Assembly: GCA_001798855.1 (NCBI GenBank)
Contig: MGQQ01000049.1
Location: 1-40,880 of the forward strand
Direction: 5' to 3'
DNA length: 40,880 bases
Origin: Deltaproteobacteria bacterium RBG_16_49_23
GTDB taxonomy: Bacteria > Desulfobacterota > BSN033 > UBA1163
This document shows positions 303 through 19,208 of this stretch, one piece after another. Position 1 is the first letter of the stretch; each line of letters starts with the position of its first letter. The position numbers and the translations under genes are program-made. The notes beneath the pieces are model-generated. The model saw only the letters and a program-made list of their open reading frames with translations, was not told where the DNA came from and searched no databases.

Positions 303-1763
303 ATGGCACTCATCACAGCGGAGCAATATGAAGAAAGTTTGAAGAAAAGAAGACCAAGGATTTTTATGAATGGAAAGAGGGTGGAAGATTATCTCAACAA
401 TCCGAATATCCGCACGGTGATTGAAGCCAACAAGGCGAGTTATCGCTGGGCGCTTGATCCGGCATTCCAGGAAATCATGACGACCATCTCCCCTCTGACA
501 AACGACCGCGTAAACCGTTATGTCTATGTCTGCCGTAGCAGAGAGGATCTGACCGCCAAGGCCATTGCAGGAACGTTTGCCTCTGAAAGGCTGGGAACCT
601 GTATCTACCGATGTCCCGGGCTGGATGCCTTTCATAGCCTTGCCAGCACGACCTGGGAGATGGACAAGAACCTCGGCACAGAATATCACAGCCGGTTTAC
701 GAAATATCTCAAGTGGGTCCAGGAGAACGACCTCGCTGTCTCAGGCGCTTTGACTGAACCAAGGGGAGACCGTAAAAAGCGGGCCATTGACTGGCCGGAT
801 CCCTTTCTATCTCTTAAGGTTGTGGAGAAAAAACCGGATGGGATCGTTGTCCGGGGAGCAAAGATCAATATCAGCGGGGCCTTTGTCAGTCATGAACTGG
901 TTGTCCTTCCCCAGTCCGCAAAGAAAAAAGACGAAGGGGACTACGCTCTTGCCTTTGCCATTCCTTCTGATGCGAAGGGGCTCACCTATATCTGTCAGTA
1001 CTCCCCTTATTCAGCCGAAAGAGAGATGGCTGAGGACATCTTCGAGCTGGGAAATCCCCTGTTCGGCCAGAGAGAGACCGCGATGGTCGTTTTTGACAAT
1101 GTCTTTGTGCCCTATGAGCGGGTGTTTCACCTCGGAGAGACCGACTATTCCACGAAATTCGTCGAACGCTTTGCCAAGACTCACCGGATGACCTGCGGAG
1201 GAACCTGCAAGGTTGGCTTTATGAATCTCATCATCGGAGCCTGCAAGCTTCTTCAGGAGTATAAAGGTCTTGAAAAAGCACAGCATATCAATGATGAATT
1301 GACGGAGATGGTCGTTCTCAGGGAGACTGGAAGGGCCTGCGGACTATCTTCAGCCAATCTCGGAAAGGAGGAACCCAAGGGTTCGGGTGTCTTCCTTCCT
1401 GATGAGTTGATGGGGAACGTGGCAAAACTCAATATCTGTGATGCCTTCTGGCGGGTCATGGCCCTGGCAGGAGATATCGGCGGAGGCCTCATCGTCACCC
1501 TGCCTTCTTTGAAGGAACTAAAAAATCCCGAGACGAAAAAATATGTCGAGGAGTTTTTGGGTTTTGGCAGTGAGGTGCCGACCGAATATATCATGAAAGT
1601 GACAAAACTTCTTCAGAACTGGACAGCCGGTCAGCACGGAGTCGGCACCTGGCATGGAGCAGGCCCGGTGATGGCCCAGAAGATCATGATCCAGAGGATG
1701 ACGGATTATGAGCATGAGAAAAACCTTGTAAAAGAAGCCCTTGGTATCTTGGATAAGAAATAA
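303..1763 (+). CDS. 4-hydroxybutyryl-CoA dehydratase / 4-hydroxyphenylacetate 3-hydroxylase family protein
   Basis: This 486-residue flavoprotein of the HpaB/AbfD family matches the length of AbfD (about 490). The AbfD [4Fe-4S] ligands can be located. C100 and C104 lie in GTCIYRCPG, and H294 and C302 lie in HRMTCGGTCKVG. There is one extra residue between the His and the last Cys compared with AbfD, and an extra Cys at 298. Iron-sulfur ligands argue for a dehydratase or isomerase acting on a CoA thioester rather than a flavin monooxygenase, since HpaB lacks the cluster. The start follows a clear AAAGGAG site. It lies upstream of activase and ferredoxin genes, so a role in anaerobic acyl-CoA metabolism is likely. 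The substrate cannot be read from sequence; 4-hydroxybutyryl-CoA is the family default. Confidence 0.8.
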   Translation: MALITAEQYEESLKKRRPRIFMNGKRVEDYLNNPNIRTVIEANKASYRWALDPAFQEIMTTISPLTNDRVNRYVYVCRSREDLTAKAIAGTFASERLGTCIYRCPGLDAFHSLASTTWEMDKNLGTEYHSRFTKYLKWVQENDLAVSGALTEPRGDRKKRAIDWPDPFLSLKVVEKKPDGIVVRGAKINISGAFVSHELVVLPQSAKKKDEGDYALAFAIPSDAKGLTYICQYSPYSAEREMAEDIFELGNPLFGQRETAMVVFDNVFVPYERVFHLGETDYSTKFVERFAKTHRMTCGGTCKVGFMNLIIGACKLLQEYKGLEKAQHINDELTEMVVLRETGRACGLSSANLGKEEPKGSGVFLPDELMGNVAKLNICDAFWRVMALAGDIGGGLIVTLPSLKELKNPETKKYVEEFLGFGSEVPTEYIMKVTKLLQNWTAGQHGVGTWHGAGPVMAQKIMIQRMTDYEHEKNLVKEALGILDKK

Positions 1764-1794
1764 CTTTGAATCACCCCCACAATTCGGGTCAGGA

Positions 1795-1840
1795 GACCCC
1801 TGCCTACCGGCAGGCAGGCGAATCTACCCGGGTAGAAGCA
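1795..1840. repeat. Short palindromic intergenic repeat
   Basis: CCTGCCTACCGGCAGGCAGG (1799-1818) is a near-perfect hairpin, followed by a second small palindrome CTACCCGGGTAG. Related CCTGCC..GGCAGG palindromes occur near 8956-9003 and 32508-32541. It is a dispersed repeat rather than a gene, and it could also weaken transcription between the two flanking genes. Confidence 0.5.
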
Positions 1841-1937
1841 AGTCTCCCGACCTGCGAAAATTGAAATTTTCATTTCTTGTGGGTGACAAACCCGTCATAA
1901 CAAACTTTAAAGAAATTAAGGGAAGAATGAGGGGATT

Positions 1938-2771
1938 ATGAAGATAACCATTCTTTGCGAAAACACCGTAGGGAAGTTAATCGGTTCTGGAGAGCATGGA
2001 TTCTCTGCATTCATTGAAACGGGAGAAGGAAACTTCCTCTTTGACACCGGAAGCGGCCATTCGGTTGTTGCAAACTCTCTTGTCCTCAACAAGGATTTAA
2101 GAAATATTAAGAAAATTTTTTTGAGCCATGGACACTATGATCATAGCGGAGGTCTGCCCGAAGTCCTGAAACTGAGAGGTCAAATAGATATACATGTCCA
2201 TCCCAACGTCTTTCTGGATCGGATTGCTATCTTCAAAGAAAATGAGAAGGAAACGAGACGATTTGTAGGCATTCCATACAAGAAGAGATATTTAGAAACC
2301 CTCGGTGCAAATTTCATCTTGAATAACATTTTTGTAGAGGTGGATAAGGGAATTTTTTTAACCGGAGAGGTTCCCAGAAAAACCCTATTTGAGAAACCGG
2401 ACCCAAGACTCTTTGTCGAGGGGAATGAAAAACCAGCTCCCGACATCCTGTTGGATGACCAATCCCTTATCCTCGATACGGAAAAAGGACTCATTCTGAT
2501 CCTTGGATGCGCCCATTCCGGAATGATTAACATCATTCAGCATGTGATCCATAAGACCGGAAAAGACAAGTTTTATGCGATCATGGGGGGAACCCACCTG
2601 GACTTCTTAACCCCGGAGCAACTCGAAGAATCCATCAAGGCTCTCAAGAAGATGACGATTGATAAGATCGGTGTCTCTCATTGCACCGGCATGAGGGCAG
2701 CATTCCGGCTCCAGCAGGAATTTGGAGACAGGTTCTCCTATGGGTGTGTGGGTAGTTTTTTAGAGTTTTGA
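1938..2771 (+). CDS. MBL-fold metallohydrolase (COG1237-like)
   Basis: This 277-residue metallo-beta-lactamase-fold protein belongs to the group annotated as 7,8-dihydropterin-6-yl-methyl-4-(beta-D-ribofuranosyl)aminobenzene-5'-phosphate synthase-like. The signature LSHGHYDHSGG is near residue 62. Further metal-site motifs follow in order: GCAHSGMIN, MGGTHL and SHCTG, all typical of this subgroup. A GAGGGG site precedes the ATG. The usual annotation is over-specific, and the true substrate of the subgroup in bacteria is generally unknown. It sits between the dehydratase-like gene and the activase genes on the same strand, so co-expression is likely. Whether it acts on CoA thioesters is unknown. 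Confidence 0.8.
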   Translation: MKITILCENTVGKLIGSGEHGFSAFIETGEGNFLFDTGSGHSVVANSLVLNKDLRNIKKIFLSHGHYDHSGGLPEVLKLRGQIDIHVHPNVFLDRIAIFKENEKETRRFVGIPYKKRYLETLGANFILNNIFVEVDKGIFLTGEVPRKTLFEKPDPRLFVEGNEKPAPDILLDDQSLILDTEKGLILILGCAHSGMINIIQHVIHKTGKDKFYAIMGGTHLDFLTPEQLEESIKALKKMTIDKIGVSHCTGMRAAFRLQQEFGDRFSYGCVGSFLEF

Positions 2772-14983: not shown

Positions 14984-16234
14984 ATGGAAACGCCACTCAT
15001 AGAATTTAGAGATGTTACCAAGCGCTTTGGCGGCCTCACCGTCCTCGACCGGGTCAATCTGAAGATTTATGAGAATCAGATCACCACGATCATGGGTAAA
15101 AGCGGTGCGGGCAAGAGTGTGATGCTCAAACACATCATCGGTTTGCTTTCGCCTGATGCAGGCACCATCTTGTTCTCAGGAAGACCCATTAACAAGATGA
15201 AAATGGGAGAATGGGATCAATACAGAAGTCAGATCAGTTACCTGTTTCAACACAACGCCCTTTTCGACTCCCTGACAGTCTTTGACAATATCGCCCTGCC
15301 ACTGAGACAAACCACCGTCATGAGCCCCAAGGAAATTGAGAAAAAGGTGATGGCTCGAATTGAGCAGACCGAACTCACGGAAGCAGCAGGTAAATATCCG
15401 ACAGAACTCTCGGGCGGCATGCAGAAACGTGTTGCCTTGGCACGGGCTCTCGTGACCGACCCAAAGATCGTGCTCTTTGATGAGCCGACAACCGGACAAG
15501 ACCCGATCCGGAAAAATGCGATCCTGAGCACAACTGCCCATTACAGGAAAAAGTTCGGTTTTACTGCAGTCCTCGTCAGCCACGACATTCCCGATGTTTT
15601 TTTCATCTCCGACCGGATCATTCTCCTCTGGGAAGGGGGGGTGGCCTTTCAGGGGCCCTATGAGGAATCCACTCGGTTGGATCATCCCATGGCAGAGGAG
15701 TTTCTCCGGAGCCTTGAAGGGTTTCAGGATGAATTGACGGGTCTCCTTTCGAAACAAATGTTCAGGGCCAGGTACGCCTCGACGTTAAATCAGGGGCAGG
15801 CAGAAAAAGCCGTGACTGCTCTCCTGTTCAGCGTGGAATTCGATCTCCTAACCGAAGCACTCGGACCCTTGGCAGCAACGGAGGTTCTCAAGGCATTAGG
15901 AGAATACATCCATACAAACCTTGGTTCCGTGGGAGGGTTCTCGGCCAGGCATAGCATCGGGCAAATTCTGGCGATCCTCCCCTATACCGATATTCATGAG
16001 GCGAAGCAATTGGTAGAAAATTTTGGCAAGGGACTTCAGAAAGAAGTATTGTCAAATATTCAGGCCCTGACAAAGGCGAACATCGGTGCCACTGCCTGTT
16101 TTGAAATTTATGTTTATGCGGGTATGACGGAAGCTCACTCCAATGATGACATTGACAGGATTATTGAAAAGGCGAGAGCGAACCAAGAAATCATTGCAAC
16201 CCATCGGTGCGATTCAAAGGGCGGAGAGATATGA
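14984..16234 (+). CDS. mlaF: MlaF-type ATPase fused to a degenerate GGDEF-like domain
   Basis: Residues 1-245 are a standard MlaF ATPase: Walker A GKSGAGKS, signature LSGGMQKR, Walker B VLFDEPTTGQDP and SHD. MlaF is normally about 250-270 residues; this protein has 416. Residues 249-410 follow the GGDEF-domain pattern: DELTGLLSKQMF at the start, ALLFSVEFDLLTEALGP in place of the DiDhFKriND strand, then ARHSIGQILAILP where RyGGDEFailLP is expected. The signature itself is SIGQI (324-328), so diguanylate cyclase activity is excluded. The tail may replace MlaB as a regulatory partner or bind a nucleotide. The domain call is by eye and is an inference. The stop overlaps the MlaD start (ATGA). Confidence 0.85.
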   Translation: METPLIEFRDVTKRFGGLTVLDRVNLKIYENQITTIMGKSGAGKSVMLKHIIGLLSPDAGTILFSGRPINKMKMGEWDQYRSQISYLFQHNALFDSLTVFDNIALPLRQTTVMSPKEIEKKVMARIEQTELTEAAGKYPTELSGGMQKRVALARALVTDPKIVLFDEPTTGQDPIRKNAILSTTAHYRKKFGFTAVLVSHDIPDVFFISDRIILLWEGGVAFQGPYEESTRLDHPMAEEFLRSLEGFQDELTGLLSKQMFRARYASTLNQGQAEKAVTALLFSVEFDLLTEALGPLAATEVLKALGEYIHTNLGSVGGFSARHSIGQILAILPYTDIHEAKQLVENFGKGLQKEVLSNIQALTKANIGATACFEIYVYAGMTEAHSNDDIDRIIEKARANQEIIATHRCDSKGGEI

Positions 16235-17408: not shown

Positions 17409-17422
17409 TAGGAGGGAATCTC

Positions 17423-18127
17423 ATGAGTGAACCGATCAATGTTGACAGAACCTTCCATTTCATCATGAGGCGGATGGTAGAGACCGGCCAGGCTCCCCAT
17501 TACACCGAAATTGCATCCGAGTTTGGAATCCCGGTAGAAGAAGGGCGAAAGGCTCTCCATGACCTTTTCGCCGCCGGGATCCCTGGATGGCTCTTCCCCA
17601 ACACAGACCTTGTCGCTTCTTTCGCTCCCTTTAACAACCTCCCTACGCAGTACCGTATTACCATTGAGGGTAAGCAGAAATGGTTCGGCCAATGAGGATT
17701 TGAATCGCTGGCGGTCTGCTGGCTTTTTCCCGGGCAAACGGTTCATATTAACGCCCCTTGCCTGGATTGCGGGGAGTCAATCCATGTGGAAATCCGGGAT
17801 GGGGTCATCCTGAAGACAGAACCCGGGGACGTGATTGGTTACGTGGCTGTTCCCTTCTGGAAGTGGTTCCAGGACACCCCGTATTCATGAAGCACCATGA
17901 ACCTCTTCCGGTCGGAAGAGCATGTCCGCAATTGGCCCCGTTTTGATCCTGCCAGTGTCGAGGGAATCATCCCGCTCCCCGATTTGGTGAAGCTTTTTTC
18001 AGGGCCTTATTTCCGCAAGCGGATGGATCAAGATTGGGTCTCTCGAAGCCGGAAATACGTCCGTGAAATGGTAGCCACTATGGTAGAGATCGGCAAGACG
18101 GGCCCTTTCTGGCAAAGACCCAAATAG
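17423..18127 (+). CDS. MerB-like protein with two in-frame TGA (selenocysteine) codons
   Basis: Read through two TGA codons (17693-17695 and 17888-17890), one frame gives 234 residues, close to MerB (about 212). It has an N-terminal helix-turn-helix-like segment (YTEIASEFGIPVEEGRKALHDLF), as MerB has. Sec91 lies in WFGQ-U-GFESL, which aligns without gaps to WCALD around catalytic C96; the +3 acid is E instead of D99. Sec156 lies in PYS-U-STMNLF, which aligns to the segment at C159, with the Trp 15 residues later also conserved. The Sec-Sec spacing is 65 residues against 63 in MerB. Each TGA has a SECIS-like hairpin at the expected distance. AGGAGGG precedes the ATG. No other mer gene is near. 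Substrate unproven; two nonsense mutations are the alternative, but the frame is otherwise intact. Confidence 0.82.
17693..17729 (+). promoter_or_regulatory. First SECIS-like element
   Basis: After the TGA come 17 bases and then the loop GGTCT, closed by GCTGGC (17707-17712) on each side. The six-pair stem has two G-U pairs and can extend by three further weak pairs. The hairpin is GCTGGC-GGTCT-GCTGGC. E. coli fdhF has the same GGTCT loop 18 bases after its TGA, so this has the size, loop and spacing of a bacterial SelB-binding element. Confidence 0.75.
17888..17920 (+). promoter_or_regulatory. Second SECIS-like element
   Basis: After the second TGA come 19 bases and then the loop GGTC, closed by a perfect seven-pair stem CTCTTCC (17903-17909) / GGAAGAG (17914-17920). 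Loop sequence and spacing match the first element. The stem is inside the reading frame, where it encodes LFRSEE. Confidence 0.75.

Positions 18128-18679: not shown

Positions 18680-19208
<529 letters not shown>

Follow-up and report, generated by a model that had tools for sequence, protein, structure and literature searches.

One gene in contig MGQQ01000049.1 of Deltaproteobacteria bacterium RBG_16_49_23 (40,880 nucleotides, the whole of which is called the window here) almost certainly encodes, judging from sequence comparison, a genuine MerB-superfamily selenoprotein in which selenocysteine (Sec, U) replaces both catalytic cysteines of MerB: U91 at the position of C96 and U156 at the position of C159. 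Incorporation of selenium at both UGA codons is strongly inferred. We put at about 0.6 the probability that the product is a double-Sec protein of the MerB family, translated from hairpin-decoded UGAs, that acts as an organometal or organometalloid lyase with MerB-type selenolate chemistry.

From its ATG to its TAG the frame contains no in-frame stop other than the two TGAs (see the table for coordinates), and standard gene calling would end the gene at residue 90. The initial annotation had read this stretch as a single frame with two TGA codons encoding a MerB-type protein, and the read-through protein indeed matches the Pfam MerB family (PF03243) with 67.3 bits, the cut-off being 27; with the two NCBIfam MerB models it scores 26.9 and 20.8 bits, below their cut-offs of 193 and 200. 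When the genome (an assembly of 171 contigs, 93% complete) was searched for the MerB domain, one match only was found, with the two TGAs inside it. Recoding of TGA to an amino acid throughout the genome was ruled out, since nine out of 24 long open reading frames (ORFs) in the window terminate with TGA.

Table. Features of the window gene and of related loci (rows with an L number give positions in the locus named).
Feature	Position	Strand	Basis or remark
MerB-family double-selenoprotein gene, 234 residues	17423..18127, TAG included	+	frame, Pfam, relatives
AGGAGG, Shine-Dalgarno-like	17410..17415	+	sequence
TGA codon 91 (predicted Sec), MerB C96 position	17693..17695	+	frame, profile alignment
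TGA codon 156 (predicted Sec), MerB C159 position	17888..17890	+	frame, profile alignment
Glu94 codon, MerB Asp99 position	17702..17704	+	profile alignment, row counts
Cys113 codon, structural MerB C117 position	17759..17761	+	profile alignment, row counts
SECIS-like hairpin 1: 6-bp stem with G-U pairs, loop GGUCU	17707..17723	+	folding, conservation
SECIS-like hairpin 2: 7-bp perfect stem, loop GGUC	17903..17920	+	folding, conservation, covariation
Family B member L173	770-1873	-	open frame including upstream part
Family B member L174	429-1181	+	open frame including upstream part
Family B member L175	746-1498	-	open frame including upstream part
Family B member L176	184-1215	+	open frame including upstream part
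Family B member L178	339-1139	+	open frame including upstream part
Family B member L179	682-1467	-	open frame including upstream part
Family B member L180	694-1656	-	open frame including upstream part
Family B member L182	366-1145	+	open frame including upstream part
Family B member L183	710-1483	-	open frame including upstream part
Single-TGA (C159 position) MerB-like L030 (= L135)	1399-2013	+	not SaoL, not family A; below all cut-offs
Single-TGA (C159 position) MerB-like L136	1483-1971	-	not SaoL, not family A; below all cut-offs
Single-TGA (C159 position) L171	471-1175	+	not SaoL, not family A; in an otherwise all-Cys C-x-x-E family

A scan of contigs with peptide patterns yielded 242 relatives, and the 80 best of them were retained; the sample is therefore tilted to near relatives, and because the patterns were searched in all codons, codon use was unselected. 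In 70 of these best 80 loci both positions are TGA in an open frame with no further in-frame stop (one of them, L093, is cut off at a contig end), nine have TGC at the first position and TGA at the second, and the last one (L081) carries a frameshift near codon 38, with both TGAs present in the second frame. Cys at position 156 is found in none of the best 80. We refer to this group as family A. Its records, nearly all of them metagenome bins, are named as Deltaproteobacteria, Syntrophaceae, other Desulfobacterota-type bacteria, Chloroflexi/SAR202, Nitrospirae, Nitrospinae, Rokubacteria, Tectomicrobia, Alphaproteobacteria and others. A separate set of 148 genomes (the window's included) contains 16 two-TGA matches over most of the protein, in 12 genomes, but the two sets are not independent, because several records coincide. 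Some copies are broken: L081, G015 (L022/L034) and G393 (L181) have frame breaks, and G040 (L023) and G005 (L029) hold only remnants. One scan of viral contigs gave 26 pattern matches with no relative among them, and plasmids gave 51 records, none of which reaches 60% identity; the 12 that were listed are MerB or alkylmercury lyase, at 24–25%.

Exchanges between Sec and Cys in homologues, which had been suggested as a check on the gene, were found at position 91: five U/C changes are needed within family A on a thinned 57-row tree, and four are forced by well-supported branches of a larger tree. Cys homologues for position 91 are provided by nine of the 80 loci and by all-Cys families (see below), those for position 156 by these other families only. 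Purifying selection is seen in all three segments into which the TGAs divide the gene (pN/pS 0.07–0.35, window versus 11 of the family loci). With both TGAs shared by 70 of 80 loci that have no other stop, these values rule out chance and uphold the original judgement that decay is unlikely.

A profile was built from 54 sequences, family members together with relatives, and aligned to MerB (1s6l); residues counted along the alignment place U91 on C96, E94 on D99, C113 on C117 and U156 on C159. C96, D99 and C159 have roles at the mercury site of MerB, according to PMC4525700. In the PDB the profile finds five different MerB chain sequences (four alignments are shown), and a single-sequence phmmer match to MerB2 agrees with it on both Cys positions. 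A gap-free alignment to C96 and C159 had been claimed from the sequence; it holds around both sites, but not over the whole protein. The homologues were checked for Cys or Sec at the two sites, and positions 91 and 156 turned out to be invariant among the 54 sequences, as is residue G22 and no other column. The positions of the MerB signature Cys96 and Cys159 are kept, with residues that are encoded by TGA and read here as Sec.

Further active-site positions were counted in 80 rows, namely the window plus all of the 80 loci except L081, which comprise 71 TGA/TGA (UU) and nine TGC/TGA (CU) rows. The Asp99 position is acidic in all 80 rows: Glu in 68 and Asp in three of the UU rows, and Glu in all nine CU rows. 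The proposed contrast of U-x-x-E in the window protein with C-x-x-D in MerB agrees with the profile alignment, in which E94 falls on D99 of 1s6l. Cys is kept at the C117 position in 71/71 UU and 9/9 CU rows (it is lost in the distant member L033), and the Trp 15 residues past codon 156, described as conserved from the sequence alone, is present in 67 of the 71 UU rows and in all nine CU rows.

An AlphaFold2 model based on the 54-row alignment, in which Sec was treated as Cys, reached a pLDDT of 95.5 and a pTM of 0.90. Foldseek found 11 matches in the PDB with E ≤ 0.001, all of them MerB, with moderate TM-scores (0.47–0.61 by query length) and 13–21% identity. No thioredoxin-like domain or fold is found among the Pfam hits and PDB structural matches of the window protein. 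Compared with MerB (PF03243; 1s6l, 3f0o, 5c17), the window protein has the same predicted fold, both metal-binding positions, the C117 position and an acid by the first site; it differs from MerB in that catalytic Cys is replaced twice, by what we read as Sec, and Asp99 is replaced by Glu.

Each TGA is followed by a SECIS-like hairpin within the coding sequence, which begins 14 bases (hairpin 1) or 15 bases (hairpin 2) past the first base of the TGA codon. Among the same 80 rows, full pairing of hairpin 1 is possible in 69 of the 71 UU rows versus four of the nine CU rows, and full pairing of hairpin 2 is possible in 75 of 80; in the five exceptions the outermost pair is C-A. At site 2, 75 of the 80 rows have the loop GGUC. 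At site 1 this loop occurs in 46 of the 71 UU rows, and most others have AGUU or AGUC; a bacterial SECIS is a hairpin close behind the TGA whose apical loop contains G-U. Energy folding gives a less clear picture: when the 48 bases that follow the TGA are folded, the minimum-energy structure contains hairpin 1 in 51/71 UU and 3/9 CU rows, and hairpin 2 in 62/70 UU and 7/9 CU rows. Hairpin 1 is often lost along with Sec codon 91 while hairpin 2 stays, which is the behaviour expected of SECIS elements.

Covariation in hairpin 2 was analysed in 35 of the 80 rows, picked for diversity: 99.2% of the cells are paired, against 46–59% when the partner is slid by one to three columns. Three pairs are changed on both sides, which was matched in one out of 500 shuffles; a measure of further pair types was not unusual (48 out of 500 shuffles). 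In L065 and L067, L161 is changed to C together with E166 to A, a compensatory change in hairpin 2 that alters the protein. Synonymous codon choice is also constrained, with a mean normalised synonymous codon entropy of 0.24 for the 11 hairpin codons versus 0.86 for the 149 others (p = 7e-8).

The initial annotation had also pointed to the sel genes, whose absence from the genome would have told against it. In the window's genome, selA (623 bits), selB (354 bits) and the gene for tRNA-Sec (selC, 82.9 bits) were found over their cut-offs; the exception is selD, with a best score of 86 bits and a cut-off of 125. Since a selD over the cut-off, with one in-frame TGA, is present in eight genomes of the genus set (10 in all, among them the window's), an assembly gap is a likely, though not demonstrated, explanation for the window's genome. 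Among 47 genomes with UU or CU loci (these represent 50 of the 80 loci; one is absent, and two pairs share a genome), selA is over the cut-off in 41 and below it in six. The selB gene is over the cut-off in 11 of the 12 UU genomes (G030 has none above it), and in 131 of all 148 genomes, so finding it is uninformative in this phylum.

TGA codons at catalytic positions are not limited to family A. A survey of 395 genomes of the phylum found a MerB-domain match in 49; among the 59 matches listed, 35 (in 27 genomes) have two TGAs, seven have one, 16 have none and one has a TAA. The 35 two-TGA matches have TGAs in both catalytic motifs each, and they comprise 26 members of family A and nine of a second family, here called family B. 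Out of the seven one-TGA matches, two (G015 and G393) are frame-broken family A members, and five have a TGA at the C159 position only: two SaoL proteins (L132 and L137), L030/L135, L136 and L171. In L143, which is closely related to L171, the C159 position holds Cys. The all-Cys C-x-x-E families (L024, L026, L131, L143 and L148) resemble the window's family in having Glu at the Asp99 position and the motif G-E-C-x-V-E; they differ from it in having Cys at both positions (L171 excepted) and longer N- and C-terminal parts. On the trees they adjoin family A without firm support (92/75 and 84/17).

Family B has a U-x-x-D motif, TGA at both catalytic positions in 9/9 members and the motif PFVQGQ/R in 8/9. 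Its hairpin 1 is of its own type, with six pairs that are standard in 9/9; its hairpin 2 has the loop GGUC in 9/9, with one row each unpaired at two outer pairs, and an innermost pair that exchanges C-G for U-A, tracking Arg/Trp in the protein. Families A and B are alike in their two catalytic TGAs, in having hairpins at fixed offsets and in the GGUC loop and offset of hairpin 2, and unlike in that family B keeps Asp (U-x-x-D), has a different first hairpin and forms a separate clade. In the 57-row tree each family lies on one side of a branch with 100/100 support; a single clade of A and B was rejected marginally (p-AU 0.022), and the deep branching order is unsure because of long branches.

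Among known systems the nearest is SaoL, a single-Sec MerB relative with the motif CU, which is the only MerB-like entry in Table 1 of a 2026 review (PMC13188914). Like the predicted window protein, SaoL is a MerB-superfamily selenoprotein with Sec at the C159 position; unlike it, SaoL has one Sec, in a C-U motif, and its C96 position is occupied by Cys. The residue preceding U156 in the window protein is Ser, unlike the C-U of SaoL. The SaoL model (NF040728, cut-off 140) gives 175 bits for L132 and 148 bits for L137, but 42 bits for the window protein, and identity with SaoL was ruled out by this score, the separate clade and the two Sec. The NF040728 profile (159 positions) stops one residue before the TGA of L132 and L137, as if it had been built on cut proteins. 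MbdU (NF045648), listed as a 'metal-binding double selenoprotein' in PMC13188914, was also considered, and it is not among the three NCBIfam hits. No cut-off in NCBIfam release 20 was reached by the proteins scanned, which are the window protein, three further members of family A (L033, L118 and L170) and three members of family B (L174, L178 and L183). A double-Sec MerB is absent from the 119 selenoprotein families and subfamilies in Table 1 of PMC13188914, although papers on SAO or on selenoprotein neighbourhoods might mention one. The claim that no organomercurial lyase with both cysteines as Sec has been described stands as far as that table and a search of open-access literature go, with the qualification that single-Sec SaoL was already known.

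The window gene lies after an Mla lipid-transport operon. ORFs around the 80 loci and the window were clustered by BLAST; no cluster occurs in more than 11 loci, there is no conserved partner among them, and many of the recurrent neighbour clusters come from five Chloroflexi/SAR202 loci that share a single block of synteny. The 80 loci and the window thus offer no conserved neighbour of any kind for comparison with the SAO gene neighbourhood of SaoL. Of the 71 close neighbours on the same strand, 60 were scanned with Pfam; the 25 families shown, out of 86, include no mer family and none that occurs in more than four neighbours, and mer families are likewise absent from ten nearby window proteins scanned. 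A function assigned from the operon was ruled out by these two analyses, as no fixed partner was found. The best MerA model hit in the window's genome has 323 bits (cut-off 454). HgcA is over its cut-off in 6/12 UU genomes versus 37/136 others (p = 0.11; G015, G040 and G005, which hold broken copies, were placed in the second group), so that a link with mercury methylation is unsupported.

Several other genes in these neighbourhoods may be mentioned. The ABC ATPase of the Mla operon (window 14984-16231, + strand) has a weak C-terminal GGDEF match (30.2 bits vs 23.8), and this ABC/GGDEF-like fusion adjoins MlaE, MlaD and MlaC. A BrnT-type ribonuclease toxin of a type II toxin–antitoxin system is encoded at 18689-18961 of the window (+ strand; PF04365, 97 bits). 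A YbaK/EbsC-type tRNA-editing-like gene was seen by eye downstream of the family A gene in L012, L013 and L034; the corresponding tRNA_edit family (PF04073) is found in two of the 60 neighbours, and none was seen directly behind the window gene.

Selenolates, compared with thiolates, are ionised at neutral pH and are stronger ligands for soft metals. In the mechanism that we propose, decoding of each UGA would be aided by a separate hairpin in the coding sequence, 14–15 bases downstream; the two selenolates would take R-Hg (or another soft metal-alkyl) into a bis-selenolate complex, Glu94, which replaces Asp99, would protonate the leaving carbon so that R-H is released, and small thiols or selenols would then take over the metal, as happens in MerB. 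The presence of Glu for Asp99 in nearly all members was counted against the lyase reading, as were the lack of a conserved operon partner and of mer families among the neighbour families shown, the MerA hit below the cut-off and the non-significant HgcA association. Its weak point is the slow release of the metal: by chemical reasoning, release of Hg(II) from two selenolates would be hard. This is the main argument for a rival explanation, in which the protein is a trap, chaperone or sensor for soft metals on the MerB scaffold that holds a soft ion such as Hg(II) or MeHg+ tightly, with no turnover. Two selenolates should hold Hg(II) tightly and release it slowly (again by chemical reasoning), the window's genome has no MerA over the cut-off to receive a product, and the gene has no fixed partners, all of which would suit such a trap. 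But the acid at the Asp99 position and the Cys at the C117 position, both kept in 80/80 rows, would be superfluous for a mere trap, and the fold and pocket positions belong to an enzyme family; we therefore regard a trap as unlikely.

A redox or other non-metal enzyme on the MerB fold, with a U91–U156 diselenide and a selenide, an arsenical or another C-X compound as substrate, appears more doubtful still. Uncharacterised Sec proteins are mostly thought to be redox enzymes, according to PMC13188914, and Cys is tolerated at position 91; the acid by U91, however, fits protonolysis and has no obvious redox role, and a thioredoxin-like domain or fold is absent among the hits. That the gene is a pseudogene, an assembly error or a product of genome-wide recoding is scarcely credible. 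Two in-frame stops, an assembly in 171 contigs and the existence of broken relatives (the frame breaks and remnants described above) would be compatible with it, but the same two codons recur in 70 of 80 loci without other stops, in records whose names point to several phyla, purifying selection continues downstream of both TGAs, the hairpins are conserved, and TGA still serves as a terminator in the window. Decay and sequencing error were accordingly ruled out by the shared TGAs, the frozen hairpin codons, the hairpin pairing and the pN/pS values. The lyase reading remains the one that we prefer.

If that reading applies generally, these proteins may form a widespread, uncatalogued group of bis-selenolate organometal lyases in which two Sec share one metal site, two MerB lineages having each gained a double Sec; they would probably act on mercurials or other metal- and metalloid-alkyls in anaerobic sediments and aquifers, and surveys would have missed them. 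We consider this wider picture evenly poised between true and false. On the same reading, the double-Sec lineages would have escaped MerB surveys because their genes look truncated. PMC8261052 describes screening of MerB homologues by C96, D99, C159 and C117, and surveys of methylmercury demethylation that screen for C96, D99 and C159 would therefore miss this group; the scale of the oversight is indicated by the two TGAs in 35 of the 59 MerB-domain matches listed for the phylum. MerB is the model enzyme for methylmercury cleavage, and a natural two-selenium MerB would test whether selenolates improve the cleavage of carbon–metal bonds or block product release, with the relatives that have Cys at position 91 as natural controls.
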